DNA of 33,971 nucleotides, taken from assembly GCA_024998685.1 (NCBI GenBank), contig JACOEH010000052.1, positions 1 through 33,971 of the forward strand, read 5' to 3'. Shown here piece after piece: positions 10,863-20,710 of this stretch (its first letter is position 1; each line of letters starts with the position of its first letter). A model generated the notes under the pieces. The model was not told the origin of the DNA and ran no database searches. It worked only from the letters and a program-made list of their open reading frames with translations. The position numbers were made by a program, and so were the translations under genes. Source of the DNA: Nitrospira sp. (GTDB lineage Bacteria > Nitrospirota > Nitrospiria > Nitrospirales > Nitrospiraceae).

Positions 10863-11609
10863 GTGGCGCAAACCATTCGCATCAATAAGTTCTTCACAGA
10901 GCATGGGATCTGTTCCCGGCGCGAGGCCGACCGTTTAATCGAATCGGGCGTCATCACGATCAACGGCCGAGCGGCCAAACTCGGCGACCAGGTAACGTCC
11001 AGTGACGTCATTGCCCGCGAGGGTCGTGTGATTTCTTGGGGCAAAGCGAATCTCTATATCAAGTATCATAAGCCGGTCGGCGTCACGACCACGAGTGAAT
11101 CGCATATCCCTCGGAATATTATTGGTGAGATCGGGCATCCGGAGCGGATTTTTCCGATCGGGCGGTTGGACAAGGATTCATCCGGCCTGATTTTACTCAC
11201 GAACGACGGCGACATCGTCAACGAGATTCTCCGTGCCGAATTCGGACATGAACGAGAGTACCTCGTGCAGGTCCATCGTCCGTTCGACCAATCTTTTTTG
11301 GATCATATGTCCCGGGGCGTGGTTATTCTTGGACGCAAGACGAAGCCCTGTCGGACATTGCGCGCCGGGCGTGATCAGTTTCGTATTATTCTAACGGAGG
11401 GACGGAACCGACAGATCAGGCGTATGTGCCGGGAGCTTGGCTATCGAGTAACCAAGTTGCACCGGACGAGGATCATGCACATTACCGACGAAGGACTATG
11501 CGCCGGCGAATGGAAAGAACTTACGAGTCAGGAGCGCGAACAACTCATGCAAGCCGTGGGGCGGGATCACGCAGGATGGATCGTATCGTGCAGTCGTGAA
11601 CGGCGTTAG
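10863..11609 (+). CDS. rluF: RsuA/RluF-type 23S rRNA pseudouridine synthase
   Basis: Isomerises a specific uridine in rRNA (or tRNA) to pseudouridine. Seen: an N-terminal S4 RNA-binding domain (RINKFFTEHGICSRREADRLI, then ITINGRAA) and the catalytic domain with the nucleophile Asp103 in GRLDKDSSGLILLTNDG, plus the late RNRQIRRMCRELGY motif. The match is closest to RluF/YjbC rather than RsuA by eye, so the symbol is tentative. The start is a GTG 33 bp after agmatinase. Its TAG stop overlaps the convergent NhaR-like gene's stop by 4 bp, so the two genes meet tail to tail with no room for a terminator. Confidence 0.88.
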   Translation: MAQTIRINKFFTEHGICSRREADRLIESGVITINGRAAKLGDQVTSSDVIAREGRVISWGKANLYIKYHKPVGVTTTSESHIPRNIIGEIGHPERIFPIGRLDKDSSGLILLTNDGDIVNEILRAEFGHEREYLVQVHRPFDQSFLDHMSRGVVILGRKTKPCRTLRAGRDQFRIILTEGRNRQIRRMCRELGYRVTKLHRTRIMHITDEGLCAGEWKELTSQEREQLMQAVGRDHAGWIVSCSRERR

Positions 11610-12505
11610 CCAAGCAGCTCTTGCCGGGCAGTCCGGACGAGAGTAAGGACGACAGGATGCTTCAGTCGTCGCTCTGCAGTGATGGCGTAGAAATGCTGTG
11701 TGAGAGTCTCCAACTGTCCGACTAGTTGGACACGGTATTGGCGGCAGATCTCTTTCTCGATCACCGACACGCCGGGGAAGATCCCATGCCCGTCCTGTCC
11801 GAACGCTTTCAATGTCGCACTGTCGTCGAACTCACCCACAATATTCGGATGCAGCCCATGGTTGACCAGCCATTGGTCGAGCAGCCGCCGAAGCGCGGCA
11901 TTCGGTGTCGGGAGGAGCAGAGGGGCGCCGCTTAACGACTGCGGAAATCCTCGACGATATTGTGCTGCCAACTTGGCCGTCGCAAACAGCGTCACTCCCG
12001 ATTCGCCCAAGGGATGGCTGTAGGTGTGTTCCTTGATGCTTGATGGGGCGGGTGTGTCGGCGATCACCAGATCCAATCGATGGGCCGTCAGGTCGGTCAG
12101 CAGTTGGCTAAGCTTGTCTTCCTGGCAGATTAACCGCGTCGGCCGATACAGCTTCAAAGCCGATTTGAGGAGCTGAGTCGCCAGCGGTTTCGGCACTGCG
12201 TCCGCAATGCCGACGACCAGCCGCGTCGGATGTCCATTGCCCTGCCCCTTCACGGTGCTCATCAGCTCTTGACCGGTCGCGAAGATGTCCTCCGCGTACT
12301 TGAACACGAGCTGGCCCATCTCCGTCAGGGCCAGGCGGCGGCCGGTTCGTATGAATAACTTTTCTCCCAGCGTATTTTCCAAGAGGTGGATCTGTCCGCT
12401 GATCGTGGGTTGCGCCAGACGGAGTTCTTCGCAGGCTTTCGTCACGGTCCCGTGTTTGGCGACGCACCAGAAATACAGCAGGTGGTGATAGTTCAGCCAA
12501 TCCAT
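11606..12505 (-). CDS. nhaR: LysR-family regulator, NhaR-like
   Basis: Transcription factor with an N-terminal winged helix-turn-helix (MDWLNYHHLLYFWCVAKHG, then LAQPTISGQIHLLE as recognition helix, residues about 1-65) and a C-terminal periplasmic-binding-protein-like effector domain. The start HHLLYFW..AKHGTVTKA is characteristic of NhaR, which in enterics senses Na+ and activates antiporter genes. The ATG at 12505 gives the usual NhaR N-terminus; the frame extends 20 residues upstream but those are not family-like. No nhaA is present; instead it is divergent from three TolC-like genes, with a T-N11-A dyad between them, so it probably controls that export cassette and itself. Ligand unknown. 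Confidence 0.88.
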   Translation of the reverse strand: MDWLNYHHLLYFWCVAKHGTVTKACEELRLAQPTISGQIHLLENTLGEKLFIRTGRRLALTEMGQLVFKYAEDIFATGQELMSTVKGQGNGHPTRLVVGIADAVPKPLATQLLKSALKLYRPTRLICQEDKLSQLLTDLTAHRLDLVIADTPAPSSIKEHTYSHPLGESGVTLFATAKLAAQYRRGFPQSLSGAPLLLPTPNAALRRLLDQWLVNHGLHPNIVGEFDDSATLKAFGQDGHGIFPGVSVIEKEICRQYRVQLVGQLETLTQHFYAITAERRLKHPVVLTLVRTARQELLG

Positions 12506-12542
12506 AATGGTCCTCGGTCTCGAATGAGGGAAGACACTATAC

Positions 12543-12557
12543 ATCGGATTAGCCGAT
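12543..12557. promoter_or_regulatory. Candidate LysR-type operator (T-N11-A dyad)
   Basis: A perfect inverted repeat, ATCGG-ATTAG-CCGAT, fits the LysR consensus T-N11-A (T at 12544, A at 12556). It lies 38-52 bp upstream of the NhaR-like start and about 90 bp upstream of the first TolC gene, the normal place for a shared LysR regulator site in a divergent promoter region. Binding is inferred. Confidence 0.5.
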
Positions 12558-12648
12558 AACTCCAATCCGTTTTATCTATTTTCAAAAATCAACGCGAGGT
12601 TGCTACTGTGAGCGCCGTCCGCCACCCGATGTGAAAGGAGCATCCCGC

Positions 12649-14199
12649 ATGATCGCTCTGGTATTGGCCGTTGTGACTCTCCTGCCAATGACCGCACTGG
12701 CGGAACCGGTGATCGACTCGCGTGCCGTGCAGGCTCAGTCGACTCGCACCGCACCCCTCACCATCGGAGAAGTGCTGGCTCGCATCGAGTTGACGCATCC
12801 GCTGCTTCGGGCGATGGGAGCCGAGCGATCGAAGGCCCGGGCGAAGATCTTGAAGGCGCTGGGGGCCTGGGAACCAATGGTCAAGAACTATACACAGACC
12901 GAACGTTATACCACGTGGAATCTCACGACGGCTTTCGACATTCCGAGTCAACATACGGCGGGATATGCCGACAGCACGATCCAGGCCGGGCATCCCTGGG
13001 GTTTCACGGTCGAAGGCGGGCTCCGCAGCGGCTTCGGGGATCGCGGCAACGCCAGAATTGCTTTTCCCCCTGATGTACTGGCCGGCTATCCTCAGCAGCA
13101 TTTCTACTACGGCGGGTCGTTCCATCTACTTCGAGGCTTCATGGTCAATGAGGAGAACGCCCAGTTTCAACAGGCCGAACTCGCGGGGCCGCAGGCGGAG
13201 ATTAAAGTGGCGCAGAAGCGACAAGATCTCTACCTGGCCGGGGCGGTGCAGTACTGGGATTGGCAGGTCGCGGTCAAACAAGCCGAGATCGTGAAGCGCG
13301 CCTTAGCCGTTGCCGAAGAGCGCTTGGTCCTGGTCGAAGGGTTGGCCAAAGGCGGGAAGTCCGCGCCGCTCGATGTCGTCGAGGTGAACCAAGAGGTTCA
13401 GAAGCGGCGACAGGCTGCGATCACCGCGCAACGGAAGGTGGAGTATGAGCAGTACAAGCTGTCACTCTTTCTCTGGGAGAACGGCGAGCCGGTGACGCCG
13501 AGACCGGAATGGGCGCCGGAATTCCAAGGCGAAACGCCGCTCCCGACCAACGACGAGGTCGCGGCCTATAAAGTAGAGGCGAAAGAAGCACGGCCAGAAG
13601 TGCAAGACATCTACATCGAAGCCAAGATCAACAATATCGACATCAAGCTCGCCAAGAACAAACTGCTCCCGATGTTGGATCTTGAGGGGGGGCCGACCAA
13701 AGGCGTCGCGGACTGGATTGTGGGGATCGGGTATCGGGTCGGCCTGCACAGTGAGATGCCGCTGTTCCAGCGGGAAGCGCGTGGGAAGGTCATGGCCGCG
13801 GAAGTGAGCCAGCAACAATTGGCGTTGAAACAGCTATATATCGAGCAACAAGTCAGCTTCGACGTGGATAACTGGCTCTCGGCCCAAGTGCGCGCCAGAG
13901 ATCGGGTGACGGCGGCGACGGAAGCCCTGCGGTTGGCCAAGACATTGGAGGAAGGTGAGCGTACGAGATTTAACATCGGGGCCACCACCGTGTTATTCGT
14001 GAACATCCGTGAGCGCCACGTGGTGGAGCAGGCGTACCAGCTGTATCGGGCGCAGGCCGACTACGCCGTGTCCAAAGGAGGGATGTTGTGGGCCAGGGGA
14101 GCATTGTCGAAGCCGTGGGCCGAAAGCGAGTTGAGCAAGTACGGGAACCAGCTGACGGCGGCGGGCATGAACGGTTACAAACAACCGGGCCGGGATTAA
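12649..14199 (+). CDS. TolC-like outer-membrane efflux protein, paralogue 1
   Basis: Outer-membrane channel of the OEP/TolC family, which joins an inner-membrane pump through an adaptor. Seen: 516 residues, a signal peptide (LVLAVVTLLPMTALA), then two OEP repeats rich in long amphipathic helices with the recurrent DLYLAGAVQYWDWQVAVKQ and EYEQYKLSLFLWE stretches, and the tail ending PGRD. The ATG at 12649 has AAGGAG nine bases upstream and starts directly at the signal peptide. It is the first of three tandem paralogues followed by an ABC protein and HlyD adaptor. The three share near-identical helical segments but differ in the region after the signal (about residues 75-160), which likely forms barrel or loop parts. 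Substrate unknown. Confidence 0.9.
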   Translation: MIALVLAVVTLLPMTALAEPVIDSRAVQAQSTRTAPLTIGEVLARIELTHPLLRAMGAERSKARAKILKALGAWEPMVKNYTQTERYTTWNLTTAFDIPSQHTAGYADSTIQAGHPWGFTVEGGLRSGFGDRGNARIAFPPDVLAGYPQQHFYYGGSFHLLRGFMVNEENAQFQQAELAGPQAEIKVAQKRQDLYLAGAVQYWDWQVAVKQAEIVKRALAVAEERLVLVEGLAKGGKSAPLDVVEVNQEVQKRRQAAITAQRKVEYEQYKLSLFLWENGEPVTPRPEWAPEFQGETPLPTNDEVAAYKVEAKEARPEVQDIYIEAKINNIDIKLAKNKLLPMLDLEGGPTKGVADWIVGIGYRVGLHSEMPLFQREARGKVMAAEVSQQQLALKQLYIEQQVSFDVDNWLSAQVRARDRVTAATEALRLAKTLEEGERTRFNIGATTVLFVNIRERHVVEQAYQLYRAQADYAVSKGGMLWARGALSKPWAESELSKYGNQLTAAGMNGYKQPGRD

Positions 14200-14222
14200 T
14201 CCGGAACAAGGAGCATCCTTCG

Positions 14223-15770
14223 ATGGCCGCTCTATTACTCGTGATTCTAATCTTGCTTCCCGTGGCGACAGGGGCGGAACCGGTGCACGATTCCAGCGCA
14301 TTGAAGGCGCAGTCCGAACGCACCGAGCCCCTGACCATCGGCGAAGTGCTTGCCCGTATTGAGTTGACGCATCCGTTGCTTCGGGCGACCGGAGTTGAAC
14401 GGATGGAGGCCCGCGCGAAGATCCTGAAAGCGCTCGGCGCGTGGGAACCGACGTTCAAGAACAGGACAGAGGCCGATCGGTATCAGTCTTGGAATTTCCT
14501 AGCCTTCGTTAATACGACTACGGGGGGATTTAACGACAGCACGATCGCGATGGGGCATCCCTGGGGCTTCACGGTCGAAGGCGGGATCCGCAATGGTTTT
14601 GGGGATCGCACCAACGAAGGTGCCCATGCTCTTCTCGCGAATGATGGACTGCTCTTTTGGCATAACCAGCAAATGATCGTCGGTGGGTCGGCCCACCTGC
14701 TGCGCGGCTTCATGATGAACGAGGAATACGCCGACTTCCAGAAGGCCGAACTCGCGGGGCCGCAGGCGGAGATCGCGGTGGCGCAGAAACGGCAAGACCT
14801 CTATCTCGCCGGCGCCGTGCAGTACTGGGATTGGCAAGTGGCTGTGAAGCAGAACGACGTGCAGCAGCGGACTCTGGCCGTGGCCGAAGAACGGTACACG
14901 CAGATCGAGGGCCAGGCGAAAAGGGGACTGTCCTCGCCGCTCGATGTGATTGAAGCCACTCAAGAAGTGCAGCGACGGCGAGAGGCCGCCATCGCCGCCC
15001 AGCGGAAGGTGGAGTATGAGCAGTACAAACTGTCCCTCTTTCTCTGGGAGAGCGGCGAGCCGGTAACGCCGCGACCGGAATGGGCACCGGAATTCCAAGG
15101 AGAAACGCCGCTCCCGACCAAGGAGGAGGTCGCGGCCTATAAAGTGGAGGCTAAAGAGGATCGGCCGGAAGTGCGGGAGCTCTACATCGACGCCAAGCTG
15201 AACAATATCGACATCAAGCTCGCCAAGAATTACCTGCTCCCAAAGTTCGATTTTCGGGGGGGGCAAATGGATGCCGGCTCGGACTGGAATGTGGGAATCG
15301 GGTATCGGATGGAATCGTTTTTTGCGATGCCGCTGTTCCAGCGGGAAGGGCGTGGGAAGGTCATGTATGCGGAAGCGGACCAGCAACAATTGGCCTGGAA
15401 ACAGCTGTACACCGAGCAACAAGTCAGCGTCGACGTGGACAATTGGCTCTCGGCCCAAGTGCGCGCCAGAGATCGGGTGACGGCGGCGACGGAAGCGCTG
15501 CGGTTGGCTAAGACGCTGGAGGAGGGAGAACGGACCCGATTCAATATGGGCGCGACCACCGTCCTCTTTGTGAACGTCCGTGAACGCAACGTGGTGGCAG
15601 CAGCGTACGAGCTGTATCGTGCGCAAGCCGACTACGCCGTGTCGCGTGGAGGCATGTTGTGGGCCAGGGGTGCATTGTCGAAGCCCTGGCCCCAAAGCGA
15701 GTTGGCCAAGTACGGGAACCCGTTGACGGCGGCGGGCATGGACGGCTTCAAACGACCGGGACGCGATTAA
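14223..15770 (+). CDS. TolC-like outer-membrane efflux protein, paralogue 2
   Basis: Second member of the tandem OEP set, 515 residues, with a signal peptide (ALLLVILILLPVATGA) and the same two-repeat helical layout. It is most like paralogue 1: long stretches such as DNWLSAQVRARDRVTAATEALRLAK are identical. The frame is open back to 14088, but the ATG at 14223 is preceded by AAGGAG and the GAGCATCC leader found before all three genes, and starts at the signal peptide. It follows paralogue 1 by only 23 bp. The closeness of copies 1 and 2 points to a more recent duplication than that producing copy 3. A long open frame on the opposite strand is a composition artefact. Confidence 0.9.
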   Translation: MAALLLVILILLPVATGAEPVHDSSALKAQSERTEPLTIGEVLARIELTHPLLRATGVERMEARAKILKALGAWEPTFKNRTEADRYQSWNFLAFVNTTTGGFNDSTIAMGHPWGFTVEGGIRNGFGDRTNEGAHALLANDGLLFWHNQQMIVGGSAHLLRGFMMNEEYADFQKAELAGPQAEIAVAQKRQDLYLAGAVQYWDWQVAVKQNDVQQRTLAVAEERYTQIEGQAKRGLSSPLDVIEATQEVQRRREAAIAAQRKVEYEQYKLSLFLWESGEPVTPRPEWAPEFQGETPLPTKEEVAAYKVEAKEDRPEVRELYIDAKLNNIDIKLAKNYLLPKFDFRGGQMDAGSDWNVGIGYRMESFFAMPLFQREGRGKVMYAEADQQQLAWKQLYTEQQVSVDVDNWLSAQVRARDRVTAATEALRLAKTLEEGERTRFNMGATTVLFVNVRERNVVAAAYELYRAQADYAVSRGGMLWARGALSKPWPQSELAKYGNPLTAAGMDGFKRPGRD

Positions 15771-15795
15771 TTCAGCAATATAGGAGCATCCTCCA

Positions 15796-17394
15796 TTGAT
15801 CCTTTTCTTGCTGTTCTCGCTGATGAGTGTGCCGGTGATCGCACTGGCGGAGCCGGTGCTCGACTCGAGCGCCGTGCAGGCTCAGTCGACTCGCACCGCT
15901 CCCCTGACCATTGAAGAGGTATTTGCCCGGATCGAACTGAACCATCCGTTGCTTCAGGCAACCGGACTGGAGCGGGCGCAGGCTCGGGCGAAAGTCCTGA
16001 AAGCGTTGGGTGTGTGGGAGCCGAGGGTTCGGAACGAGCTCGAGTTCGACCGGTATCAAACGTACAATCTGACGAACGTCAGTGGCGCGCCGAATCACTT
16101 AAGTGCTGGCTATGTCGATACCTTTCTCAAGGTTGGGCACCCCTGGGGGTGGGAGATCTTCGGCGGTATTCGTAACAACTTTGGAGATCATGCGACGCTC
16201 CTTGGGCAGAACACCCTGAATCCATCCGACCGTAACGTACAGAGTCCCGCAGTGGCGGTCCCTATGGACTTGCAACTGTTCTATCCGCAGCAAATGATGA
16301 TCATCGGCGGAAAGTTTAATCTCCTGCGGGGATTCATGGTCAACGAAGAGTTTACCCAATTTCAACAGGCGGAGGTCGCCGGGCCGCAAGCCGAGGTGAA
16401 GGTGGCCCAGAAACGGCAAGATCTCTATCTCGCCGCGGCTGTTCAATACTGGGATTGGCAGGTCGCCGTCAAACAAGCCGATGTGGTAAAGCGTGCACTG
16501 GACGTCGCGGACGAGCGCTATCGCATGATTGAGGGCAGAGCCAAAGCCGGCGCGGTCGCTCCGATCGACGTGGTCGAAGCCCGAGAAGAAGTTCAGCGGC
16601 GTCGAGAGGCTGCCATTGCCGCGCAACGGAAGGTCGAGTATGAGCAATATAAGCTGGCGCTTTTTCTCTGGGAAAAGGGCCAACCTGTGACACCTCGCCC
16701 TGAGTGGGCGCCGGAGTTTCAAGGGGAAACGCCGTTGCCGAGTGACGAGGATGTGGCGGCCTTCAAAGTGGAAGCGACGGAGGATCGGCCGGAAGTGCGC
16801 GATCTCTATATTGAAGCCAAATTGAACAATATCGAACTAAAACTGGCGAAGAATAATCTCCTTCCGAAGCTGACGGTTGAGGGTGGGCCGGCGATCGGCG
16901 CTATCTATTGGGCTGGAGGAATCGGCTACCGAATGGCTACTTTATTCAGTATGCCGTTGTTCAATCGGACTGCACGAGGGAAGGTCCTTCACGCCGAAGC
17001 GCAGCAAGAACGATTGGCATGGAAACAAGCATACACGGAGCGACAGGTTGCGATCGACGTTGATAACTGGCTTTCAGCGATTGTGCGAGCCAGAGACCGA
17101 GTGAAGGCCTCGACAGAGGCCCTGCGCTTGGCCAAGACCTTAGAAGAAGGCGAACGAGCCCGGTTTAATATGGGAGCAACGAGCGTGCTCTTCGTCAACA
17201 TACGAGAGCGTGCGGTGGTCGAAATGGCTTACGAGCTCTACCGAGCTCAAGCTGACTATGCCGTAGCCCGAGGCGGAATGCTCTGGGCAAGGGGAGCGCT
17301 ATCGAAGTCGCTAGCCGACAATATCCTGGCCAAGTATGGGGATCCACTGTACGCAGCCGGCTCGTCCGGACGCAAACTGCCGGGACGGGATTGA
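15796..17394 (+). CDS. TolC-like outer-membrane efflux protein, paralogue 3
   Basis: Third OEP-family paralogue, 532 residues, slightly longer because of extra residues after the signal peptide (about 110-150) before the conserved LLRGFMVNEEFTQFQQAE segment. The start is a TTG at 15796 with AGGAG nine bases upstream and the same GAGCATCC leader as its siblings; it begins directly with a signal peptide (LFLLFSLMSVPVIALA). Helical blocks and the PGRD tail are conserved, but the sequence diverges more from copies 1 and 2 than those do from each other. It is the copy nearest the ABC gene, 149 bp upstream, a gap that may carry an internal promoter. Confidence 0.9.
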   Translation: MILFLLFSLMSVPVIALAEPVLDSSAVQAQSTRTAPLTIEEVFARIELNHPLLQATGLERAQARAKVLKALGVWEPRVRNELEFDRYQTYNLTNVSGAPNHLSAGYVDTFLKVGHPWGWEIFGGIRNNFGDHATLLGQNTLNPSDRNVQSPAVAVPMDLQLFYPQQMMIIGGKFNLLRGFMVNEEFTQFQQAEVAGPQAEVKVAQKRQDLYLAAAVQYWDWQVAVKQADVVKRALDVADERYRMIEGRAKAGAVAPIDVVEAREEVQRRREAAIAAQRKVEYEQYKLALFLWEKGQPVTPRPEWAPEFQGETPLPSDEDVAAFKVEATEDRPEVRDLYIEAKLNNIELKLAKNNLLPKLTVEGGPAIGAIYWAGGIGYRMATLFSMPLFNRTARGKVLHAEAQQERLAWKQAYTERQVAIDVDNWLSAIVRARDRVKASTEALRLAKTLEEGERARFNMGATSVLFVNIRERAVVEMAYELYRAQADYAVARGGMLWARGALSKSLADNILAKYGDPLYAAGSSGRKLPGRD

Positions 17395-17543
17395 CATGAT
17401 AAATGAACTTTTTGGGATCGGTATTAGCGTATAGTTCATTCGGTGGGCTTGGATATAGGTTCCCAAACGTGATGTAGTTCAGCCGTCATTAAGTTCAGCA
17501 AGGTGCCGATCAATCACATTCTGACTTATTACTGGGGGTGCTC

Positions 17544-19220
17544 ATGAAAGAACCTCAGGGCGAAGGTAATCAGGGCCTGTTCGAAGCGCTGATGAAGCAG
17601 CTCTCCGTGGCGATGCGGGCTGAGAAAAAAATCATGAGTCTGATTTTTTCTTATGCCCTGGCCGTTGGGTTCTTTTCTCTTATCATTCCGTTGACCGTGC
17701 AGGAATTGGTCAGCACCTTTTCCTATGCGGTTCAGCCGGTCATGATTTGGACTCTAACCGGCATCATGCTCGCGGTTCTGTTGTTTGTCGGTCTGTTCAA
17801 GACATTCCATTTCTATGCGGTGGACGTCGTGCAACGCCGACTCTTTGCAAGAGTCGCGGTCGCGATGGTTGAACAGCTTCCTCGGAATCGATTTAAAGGG
17901 GTGCAGTCCGAGCTTGCGAATTACTTCATCGAAACGGTCTTTATGCAACGGGCCTTGTCCACGCTGCTCATCGACCTGATAAACGTCGTGGTTGGTGGGA
18001 CGGTCGGAATGATCGTGCTGATTGTCTACCATCCCTATTTTCTTGTGTACAACCTTCTGCTCATGGCCGGGTTTGGGCTCACGTTTTTCGTCCTCTCTCG
18101 TGGGGCACTGAAGACGACCCTCGCCATGTCTCACGCGAAGTACGACGTCTTCAATTGGATCCAAGAGATTTCGCGGAATGCGTTGCAGTTGAAAGCCACC
18201 GACAGCCGCCCATTTCTCATGCAGAAGACGAACGATCTCGTCACTCGATACGTCGAAACTCGGAAGGCTCGGTTTGCCGTTCTCGTGCGGCAGTATATCG
18301 GTTCAGTGAGCGGACAAGCGATCGCACAATCAGGCGCTCTTGGCCTCGCAGGCTATCTTATGGCAGCAGGGCAGTTGACCCTAGGGCAGTTGGTCGCTGT
18401 TCAAGCGGTCGTCGGCGCACTCGTCATCAATTTCGACTCCCTCATCAAAAACATGGGATATGTGTACTATTTCTTCACGTCCCTCACGCACCTGGATACG
18501 ATCTTTAGACAGGAGCAAGATTATGTCTCGGTCGAATCGCCCGTGGGACTTCCTAAACATTTGACTCAGGGGGTGCGTGTCACCTGTAAAGGTGTCAGCT
18601 TGATTCACGGTGGAGTGTCTGTGTTCGACGGTTTCAACTTGGATGTGGCCCCAGGCGAGAAGCTCGGTATCTACGCGCGGACGACAGGAGCCAAAACCGC
18701 TTTGGCCAGGGTGTTGGGCGGGCTCGAAACTCCGACCAATGGCGTTGTTCAGTACAATGGCGTGGATCTTCGGTATATCGATCCCAATGCGATCAATCAA
18801 ACCCGGAGCGTCATGATCGATTCTCAGTTGTCCTTAATCAAAGGAACGATCGAAGAAAATATCGTCATGGGGCGTTCTTATGTCACCTATGATGACCTCA
18901 ATTGGGCTCTCCGTTTTACCGAACTTGAAGAAGATGTCGAGGGTTTGGCGCGCGGTGTTAAGTCCGATGTCTCCTCACTGGGAGAATCCCTTTCTCCGAC
19001 TCACATCGTGCAGATTCTTTTGGCCCGAGCGATTTTAGGACGTCCGCAAGTTCTCATATTTGACGGATTGATTCACTCGCTCGAGCCGTCATTGCGCGAG
19101 CGTGTGCTGCGCCGGTTGTGCTCCAAGGATGAGGCATGGTCGGTGATCTTCGTGTCGACGGATCCCAATCTTACGGATCATGCCGATCGTCGTATTATGC
19201 TGCATCATGCTCATGCGTAA
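17544..19220 (+). CDS. ABC exporter (membrane domain plus ATPase domain) with degenerate ATPase motifs
   Basis: Half-transporter resembling type I secretion ABC proteins, 558 residues. Residues about 30-310 form a six-helix type I exporter membrane domain; residues about 335-558 form the nucleotide-binding domain. The Walker A lysine is kept (ARTTGAKT, Lys384), though its first Gly is Ala. Other motifs are eroded: the Q-loop glutamine is displaced, the signature LSGGQ reads LSPTH, the Walker B pair reads DG (Asp507-Gly508) where the catalytic Glu is expected, the D-loop reads SLE, and no histidine is at the H-loop (FVSTDP). ATP binding may survive while hydrolysis should be poor. No C39 peptidase domain. 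The ATG at 17544 has GGGGG upstream; a GTG two codons earlier is possible. HlyD follows, TolC paralogues precede, so it is the inner-membrane part of this cassette. Confidence 0.88.
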   Translation: MKEPQGEGNQGLFEALMKQLSVAMRAEKKIMSLIFSYALAVGFFSLIIPLTVQELVSTFSYAVQPVMIWTLTGIMLAVLLFVGLFKTFHFYAVDVVQRRLFARVAVAMVEQLPRNRFKGVQSELANYFIETVFMQRALSTLLIDLINVVVGGTVGMIVLIVYHPYFLVYNLLLMAGFGLTFFVLSRGALKTTLAMSHAKYDVFNWIQEISRNALQLKATDSRPFLMQKTNDLVTRYVETRKARFAVLVRQYIGSVSGQAIAQSGALGLAGYLMAAGQLTLGQLVAVQAVVGALVINFDSLIKNMGYVYYFFTSLTHLDTIFRQEQDYVSVESPVGLPKHLTQGVRVTCKGVSLIHGGVSVFDGFNLDVAPGEKLGIYARTTGAKTALARVLGGLETPTNGVVQYNGVDLRYIDPNAINQTRSVMIDSQLSLIKGTIEENIVMGRSYVTYDDLNWALRFTELEEDVEGLARGVKSDVSSLGESLSPTHIVQILLARAILGRPQVLIFDGLIHSLEPSLRERVLRRLCSKDEAWSVIFVSTDPNLTDHADRRIMLHHAHA

Positions 19221-19264
19221 ACGGTTGGAATGGCAATCAACACCGGTAAATGAATGGAGGCTCC

Positions 19265-20710
19265 ATGGCTAGCCTAGGTCGCGGTGTCGACGGCGGCGGG
19301 GAACGTGCGCTGGTTAAGCAAGGGGTGGGCTTGGAAGCGATCACGATCGAACAGGGACCCACATTGTCCAAGTTGCCGTGCTGGGAAGCGGTACAGATTC
19401 CAGGAGGAATGTTTACGGCATCTCGTGCCATCCTGACAATTCTTCTGCTCTTTCTCATCATCCTTGAGTTCGTCCCCTGGACGCAGACCATCGCTGTGAA
19501 CGGGAAAGTTTCTGCGTATACTCCCTACGACCGGCCACAAAAGATAGAATCCCGGATTACAGGTCGTATCAAAGCTTGGCATATTTATGAAGGAGTCAAA
19601 GTTAAAAAAGGCGAGCTCGTCGGCGAGCTTGAGGACTACGACCCGACATTCATGGCGCCTGAAATCCTCCCTCTCTTCGAACAACGCAAGATCGCTTTGG
19701 AACAGACACGCCAGGCGGCAATGGCGAAAGCTGACCAGCTCACCAAAAGAATAGGGGAAATGAAGAAACTGGTGCAGGCTGCTGTACCCTCCGCTGAGGC
19801 CCGCGTGGTCGAGGCCGACAACAAAGTGCGGGAAGCACAGCAGAAGGTGGAACAGCTTAAGATCGATGTGCATACAGCGCAACTCAACGTCGACCGGCAC
19901 CGGCAACTTGTCAGGGACGGGTTGGTTTCACAACGGGAACTTGAACTAACAATTCAGACAGAAATCGGTACAAAAGCAGGTTTGCAGGCAGCACAGGCCG
20001 GTTTGTTGGCTGCCGAGCAGGCTCGGTCCGCCTTGAGCTTCGGTCGGGATCAGATCACGGCAGATGTGCAGCAGAAACTTCTGGATGCGATAGCATCACG
20101 CGACGCCGCTGTGGCGGAAGCCGCCAAAGCTACCGAATCGTTGGCGGAAATCGCATACAAGCAACAGGGTGTCCAACAACGAATCGAGGCAGCTCGCCTT
20201 ATCGCTCCGATGGACGGAACCGTCGTCAAGATGGCGAAAGTCGGCATCAATGAGACGGTTAAACAGGGAGAGAATCTGGTCACTATTTCTCCCCTCGCCT
20301 CTGATCCGGCCATTGAAATGGTGGCTGAAGGGTTGGATTCTCCGCTGTTGAAACCTGGTCGGAAGGTTAGGATCTTGTTTTTCGGAGTGCCGGCTATTCC
20401 ATTGCCGGCTTGGCCATCGTTGATGGCGGGTACTCGTGGTGGTGTCATCAAAGTGGTCGATCAGATCGACGATGGAAAAGGGAATTACCGATTCTGGGTC
20501 GTTCCTGACCCGGATGATCCTCAACCATGGCCTGAGCAGGCTCAGGTGAGGCAGGGCACAAAGGTATTGGGTTGGGTGATCATGAATCGCGTTCCTCTTT
20601 GGTACGAACTGTGGCGACGCTTTAACTTCTTCCCACCGGATTATATTGAGCGGTCACCAAGTGTGTTCGAGATGTTCGCACCCAAGGTGGCGGCCCCTGG
20701 CGGTAAATAG
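19265..20710 (+). CDS. HlyD-family periplasmic adaptor (membrane fusion protein)
   Basis: Links an inner-membrane exporter to a TolC channel. Seen: 481 residues, a short cytoplasmic N-terminus, one transmembrane helix (about residues 55-78, LTILLLFLIILEFVPW), a first half lipoyl/barrel-sandwich segment, a long alpha-helical coiled coil (about 135-310, rich in Ala, Gln and Lys), the second half lipoyl segment (LIAPMDGTVVKMAKVGINETVKQGE), then a beta-barrel region. The start at 19265 has GGAGG six bases upstream; an ATG at 19250 is in frame but lacks spacing. A strong hairpin 44 bp after the stop ends the operon. Together with the ABC protein and TolC paralogues it forms a full tripartite set. 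Confidence 0.92.
   Translation: MASLGRGVDGGGERALVKQGVGLEAITIEQGPTLSKLPCWEAVQIPGGMFTASRAILTILLLFLIILEFVPWTQTIAVNGKVSAYTPYDRPQKIESRITGRIKAWHIYEGVKVKKGELVGELEDYDPTFMAPEILPLFEQRKIALEQTRQAAMAKADQLTKRIGEMKKLVQAAVPSAEARVVEADNKVREAQQKVEQLKIDVHTAQLNVDRHRQLVRDGLVSQRELELTIQTEIGTKAGLQAAQAGLLAAEQARSALSFGRDQITADVQQKLLDAIASRDAAVAEAAKATESLAEIAYKQQGVQQRIEAARLIAPMDGTVVKMAKVGINETVKQGENLVTISPLASDPAIEMVAEGLDSPLLKPGRKVRILFFGVPAIPLPAWPSLMAGTRGGVIKVVDQIDDGKGNYRFWVVPDPDDPQPWPEQAQVRQGTKVLGWVIMNRVPLWYELWRRFNFFPPDYIERSPSVFEMFAPKVAAPGGK

Follow-up and report, generated by a model that had tools for sequence, protein, structure and literature searches.

An ATP motor is the defining feature of ABC transporters, and in ABC exporters the residues of the catalytic motifs are needed for ATP hydrolysis. 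In the stretch of DNA analysed here (the window, 33,971 nucleotides of a Nitrospira sp. contig), one gene encodes an exporter in which nearly all of these motifs are altered, which raises the question of whether such a protein still hydrolyses ATP and what it may do if it does not. An earlier note on this DNA had considered an ATP-gated or a non-hydrolysing protein, or one pairing with an intact ABC protein encoded elsewhere.

The altered ATPase domain

The degenerate exporter encoded at 17544–19220 on the forward strand is referred to below as ABC*. Its membrane domain and reading frame had been described as intact, and the ORF is indeed unbroken and full length; it ends at 19220 and starts with either a GTG at 17538 (560 aa) or an ATG at 17544 (558 aa). 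The latter is probably the coding start, since a GGGGG run lies a few bases 5′ of it. Residue numbers follow the 560-aa frame (from 17538), those of the earlier note being lower by 2. Motif positions were set by alignment to intact exporters of the same genome, and only for the Q-loop could the position be off by one residue.

17544..19220, + strand: pseudo-ATPase ABC exporter gene ABC* (558 aa, half-transporter), by profile match and full-length type-I exporter fold
17625..18506, + strand: transmembrane domain, residues 30–323, by conserved columns and structure model
18570..19211, + strand: degenerate NBD, residues 345–558, by Pfam match, alignment and dN/dS
18675..18698, + strand: Walker A remnant ARTTGAKT, glycines lost, Lys386/Thr387 kept, by alignment
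18819..18824, + strand: Q-loop position, D428-S429 replacing Gln, by alignment
18990..19004, + strand: signature position, LSPTH (485–489) for LSGGQ, by alignment
19050..19067, + strand: Walker B VLIFDG, Asp509 kept, catalytic Glu replaced by Gly510, by alignment
19077..19085, + strand: D-loop SLE, residues 514–516, by alignment
19158..19160, + strand: H-loop position, Thr541 for His, by alignment

The P-loop, the LSGGQ signature, the Walker B Glu and the H-loop His, which together mark an ABC exporter's catalytic site, are thus all non-standard in ABC*. The alignment bears out what had been read from the sequence before, namely a retained Walker A Lys–Thr pair (K386/T387), a glycine in place of the Walker B Glu (then numbered Gly508), LSPTH at the signature, SLE at the D-loop, a missing H-loop His and a displaced Q-loop Gln, Q430 adjoining the D428/S429 position and being itself unconserved. 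That list was correct but incomplete, as it did not name the loss of all three P-loop glycines (A380, T383 and A385 in A380-R-T-T-G-A-K386-T387). As the same changes recur in relatives of 40–96 % identity, the comparison indicates that they reflect neither chance nor sequencing error.

ABC* scores above the cut-off of Pfam ABC_tran (37.5 bits, cut-off 25) and below those of the T1SS model TIGR03375 (109 bits against 693), TIGR01846 (81 against 726) and TIGR01842 (92 against 510). An AlphaFold2 monomer model built from 69 sequences (mean pLDDT 74.1, pTM 0.57) predicts a type-I exporter fold comprising both the membrane domain and the NBD. Among solved structures, HlyB from the HlyB/HlyD complex (8dck_B) matches best, with Z 26.6 and rmsd 3.2 over 531 residues, and the Z scores of BmrCD, TmrAB and PCAT1 differ from it by no more than about one unit; HlyB, PCAT1 and TmrAB are matched over 510–535 residues at Z 25–27, and PrtD (5l22_A) at Z 25.2. 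Because the top structure matches are effectively tied, the modelled fold does not by itself select a subfamily.

Conservation, selection and loss of the NBD

Each of the 175 genomes in this GTDB family yielded an exporter match of some kind, and about 150 of them have a close homologue. The motifs were counted in 180 distinct family proteins pooled from several sources. The first, second and third Walker A glycines were intact in 3, 8 and 25 proteins, respectively, and the Lys in 148 (Arg in 29); the Q-loop Gln was present in two, the signature Ser in 61, its first Gly in none and its second in eight, the Walker B Asp in 136 and Glu in two, and the H-loop His in none. The degenerate state, of which LSPTH, DG and the missing His had earlier been proposed for testing in homologues, is therefore family-wide, and close family members with standard motifs, named in advance as the finding that would speak against it, were found in none of the genomes searched. 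On these motif losses, ABC* very probably does not hydrolyse ATP, as the earlier note had suggested. Since the Walker A Lys–Thr and the Walker B Asp are retained in most Nitrospiraceae, ABC* may still bind nucleotide or even hydrolyse it slowly in a non-standard manner.

The substitutions are themselves conserved: the Q-loop has DSQLSLFEGT, the signature APTH or TTSQ, Walker B LIFDG and the H-loop VSNDP. Within 69 Nitrospirota sequences D428, S429, G510 and K530 are invariant and H513 nearly so, a pattern that would suit an active ATPase rewired onto non-standard residues, such as D428-S429, H513 or K530. We regard such an enzyme as quite unlikely, given that this residue set is not kept in the second Nitrospirales family, the Bacteroidota or the Sphingomonadales and that no known catalytic geometry is left once the signature glycines and the Walker B Glu are gone.

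Among 30 close relatives in Nitrospira, the NBD had a dN/dS of 0.046 and the membrane domain one of 0.093; in an intact MsbA-like exporter, taken as a control from genomes of the same family, the values were 0.056–0.074 and 0.084–0.090, respectively. Purifying selection on the dead NBD is strong and, on its similarity to this control, the domain is as constrained within Nitrospira as a live one; given such selection, it does something there. The number of missing catalytic residues could in principle point to a decaying pseudogene or an assembly error, a reading with a negligible chance of being right, as the frame is intact, the same changes occur in well over 100 genomes and the computed dN/dS lies well below 1. 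Local decay or sequencing error is ruled out by the 180 homologues together with dN/dS, and the earlier judgement that this is not simple decay holds.

Across three phyla the constraint is the reverse of that within Nitrospira, with 15 of the 16 invariant columns located in the membrane domain and one in the NBD. Residues that are near-invariant in the family and not in canonical exporters include Y39, R101, H165, S198, W207, Y238, Q252, Q284 and E289. The family is found in the Nitrospiraceae, a second Nitrospirales family, the Bacteroidota and the Sphingomonadales. The 80 best matches of the contig scan were nearly all titled Nitrospirota, and a plasmid search returned full-length relatives at 22–27 % identity in Persicobacter, Riemerella and Novosphingobium, canonical exporters being matched there over part of the protein only, mostly in the NBD. 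Additional members were found in Aureibacter, Sphingomonas, Sphingobium and Croceicoccus, and Novosphingobium aromaticivorans carries its copy on pNL2 (SARO_RS19820). All of these members are degenerate, and those of the Bacteroidota and Sphingomonadales come from plasmid-type replicons only. In a tree of the membrane domain alone, all 42 sampled members were separated from 10 canonical exporters with a branch support of 100/100, although the length of this branch requires that deep relations be read cautiously. A single loss of ATPase function in the ancestry of the family is plausible on this evidence.

The Walker A Lys is absent from the second Nitrospirales family and from the Sphingomonadales members. 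At two loci of the former (L206 and L207), the gene ends after the membrane domain (337 and 346 aa), while HlyD and TolC are intact, and the next gene begins about 50 (L206) or 500 (L207) bases further on. No NBD remnant was detected at either locus by tblastn with five NBDs or by three-frame inspection of the L207 gap, a search which rules out a split gene or frameshift concealing the domain. Judged from these genes, in L206 and L207 at least the module cannot use an NBD of its own. The family thus presents a graded series in which the Lys is kept, then lost, and finally the whole NBD is lost.

This series bears on the possibility that ABC* is an ATP-gated, non-hydrolysing switch, CFTR-like or SUR-like, in which nucleotide binding through Lys386, Thr387 and Asp509 would open or close the conduit. 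The frequent retention of the Walker A Lys (148/180, with Arg in 29) and the Walker B Asp (136/180), as well as the low dN/dS of the NBD (0.046), would be in keeping with it, but the loss of the P-loop glycines in nearly all members makes a normal phosphate loop unlikely, the Lys is missing from the second Nitrospirales family and the Sphingomonadales, and two species have no NBD. We therefore consider the switch rather unlikely. The earlier suggestion of ATP gating stands as a possibility where the Lys is kept and fails as a general account, because one family lacks this residue and two species lack the domain.

The HlyD–TolC module and the search for a partner

The conserved context of ABC*, which was left out of the earlier reading of the gene, is a module with a periplasmic adaptor and an outer-membrane factor. 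In the window, three tandem TolC genes (12631–17394), ABC* and HlyD form a same-strand run that is followed by purE/purK.

11606..12565, − strand: LysR regulator, NhaR equivalog (NF008284, 242 bits, cut-off 219), by profile; divergent from the module
12631..14199, + strand: TolC-type outer-membrane factor, copy 1, by profile
14223..15770, + strand: TolC-type outer-membrane factor, copy 2, by profile
15796..17394, + strand: TolC-type outer-membrane factor, copy 3, by profiles and conserved context
19265..20710, + strand: HlyD-type periplasmic adaptor (in-frame ATG also at 19250), by profiles and conserved context

The three TolC paralogues are about 66 % identical and common to close relatives, most other genera having one. 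Of the 88 Nitrospirota loci whose flanks both extend for 4 kb or more, 85 have HlyD and TolC next to ABC*; the three exceptions are orphan paralogues that are likewise degenerate. Gene order varies by genus (HlyD-TolC-ABC* or TolC-ABC*-HlyD), and the trio occupies either the purEK/rluB locus or a second one. HlyD, TolC and an ABC* with a degenerate NBD also occur together in Riemerella, Aureibacter, Novosphingobium, Sphingomonas, Croceicoccus and Sphingobium; wherever the record was annotated, the order in these other phyla was ABC*-HlyD-TolC, except for one gene interrupted by a transposase.

A LysR gene lies beside the module in many relatives, and related LysR genes adjoin it in the second Nitrospirales family as well. 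The NhaR-type regulator suggests Na+/pH control. Genes for inorganic-carbon transport, DabA/DabB, adjoin the module at L206 (5504–11728), L207 (1228–7438) and L230 (1–3911), and DabA lies near it at L200 (14247–17492), which places Dab genes in the vicinity of the trio in two phyla. Orphan degenerate copies with no HlyD or TolC nearby were also observed (L166, L168, L169, L208–L212 and L214–L219), for example in Candidatus Nitrospira defluvii (FP929003.1), and one of these paralogues adjoins a glycosyltransferase gene.

Heterodimers with a single degenerate site are common among exporters (PMC7756269), and in several genera a second ABC* gene stands in tandem with the first (L062, L063, L067, L068, L069, L078 and L080; 44–47 % identity to the window protein). 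Both observations would fit a heteromer of ABC* and an intact ABC half-transporter from another locus, in the manner of TM287/288, TmrAB or BmrCD. Yet both tandem copies are degenerate, and the pair is possibly a heterodimer of two dead subunits; the window's own genome holds no second family member, the genomes searched yielded no intact member, and the operons of three phyla encode degenerate copies only. Among 14 ABC*-carrying genomes, HlyB was found above the curated cut-off in nine and not in the other five, which include the single-contig genome G046, so an intact T1SS partner is not required. The partner subunit with a consensus site that characterizes heterodimeric exporters was accordingly not found for the ABC* family. 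A heteromer of this kind is highly unlikely, an intact partner in the same genome is ruled out as a general explanation by the own-genome and 14-genome results, and the pairing envisaged in the earlier note is not upheld; a distant partner from an unrelated family may exist. At one locus (L039, G000:C44:31475-33376), the genome's only HlyB above the cut-off ends after the D-loop (positions 1–631 of 694, no H-loop), the copies of relatives being full length; an insertion or an assembly break is a possible cause.

Proposed mechanism and relation to known systems

The reading that we favour, with moderate confidence, is that ABC* is the inner-membrane subunit of a tripartite ABC*-HlyD-TolC conduit, a T1SS-like exporter with a pseudo-enzyme ATPase. 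On the fold and the gene context, a homodimer of the membrane domain would probably dock the HlyD adaptor, which would in turn open TolC. In Nitrospira, the paired NBDs may stay folded and act as a clamp by which the inward gate is held or regulated, and they perhaps bind a nucleotide or some other ligand that is not split. Export would then be gated and powered outside the NBD, by a substrate gradient or by a proton or sodium motive force, which would act via conserved polar membrane-domain residues; this driving force is speculative. That the cross-phylum family as a whole abandoned the ATP motor and runs a HlyD–TolC conduit on an ion or substrate gradient, its NBD being no more than a clamp and in some species gone, is a tentative extension to which we give somewhat less than an even chance.

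No secreted substrate, such as an RTX protein, is evident near ABC* among the ORFs of the window. Together with the divergent NhaR-type LysR gene, this is a weak pointer to efflux, either ion-linked or of small molecules, and away from protein secretion. The gene context, with NhaR, DabA/DabB and, in Nitrospira, purEK, hints at ions or inorganic carbon, the purEK link being one conserved locus that counts once.

The family is conserved across nitrite oxidisers, and no copy found has a working site. It is a natural case in which to ask what the membrane domain of an ABC protein is capable of when no ATP is hydrolysed, and whether another force can drive a HlyD–TolC conduit. It also carries a warning for annotation, as counts of "ABC transporter ATP-binding protein" or T1SS genes in Nitrospira, Sphingomonadales and Bacteroidota may include genes that are not ATP-driven.

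Among known systems, the proton-driven EmrAB-TolC and AaeAB resemble the ABC* module in using a HlyD-type adaptor and TolC, and AaeR is a LysR regulator like that beside the module; their inner-membrane part is an MFS or FUSC protein, whereas that of the module is an ABC membrane domain. CFTR and SUR (ABCC7, ABCC8/9) are, in a manner that recalls ABC*, ABC exporters repurposed from pumping, but they bind ATP and keep one competent site, while ABC* is bacterial, pairs with HlyD–TolC and can lose its NBD entirely. Heterodimeric exporters (TM287/288, TmrAB, BmrCD and TAP) share with ABC* the fold and the loss of catalytic residues in an NBD, and differ in keeping one consensus site per dimer, every copy of ABC* found being degenerate. 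To our knowledge, the known degenerate exporters retain one working site per dimer.

A review of degenerate sites covers exporters that keep one active site, and a term search of it found no mention of two degenerate sites (PMC7756269). The literature searched, which was incomplete and drawn mainly from open papers, contained neither a description of the ABC* family nor a report of a HlyD–TolC operon whose exporter has two dead sites. SecA_DEAD/HlyD loci, with one member in Nitrospirae, combine HlyD/OEP genes with the lack of a normal ABC ATPase (PMC4452313); they contain a SecA-like ATPase and no ABC homologue, and a replacement ATPase of this type was not seen beside the ABC* module.

The T1SS ABC transporters (HlyB, LssB and PrtD) share with ABC* the full-length fold and the co-encoded HlyD and TolC. 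ABC* differs from them in lacking the ATPase motifs and a C39-like N-terminal domain, in scoring far under the curated cut-offs and in having an NhaR-type regulator divergent from its operon. In fold and module, ABC* is thus a T1SS-like ABC exporter, while its energy principle is probably not theirs.
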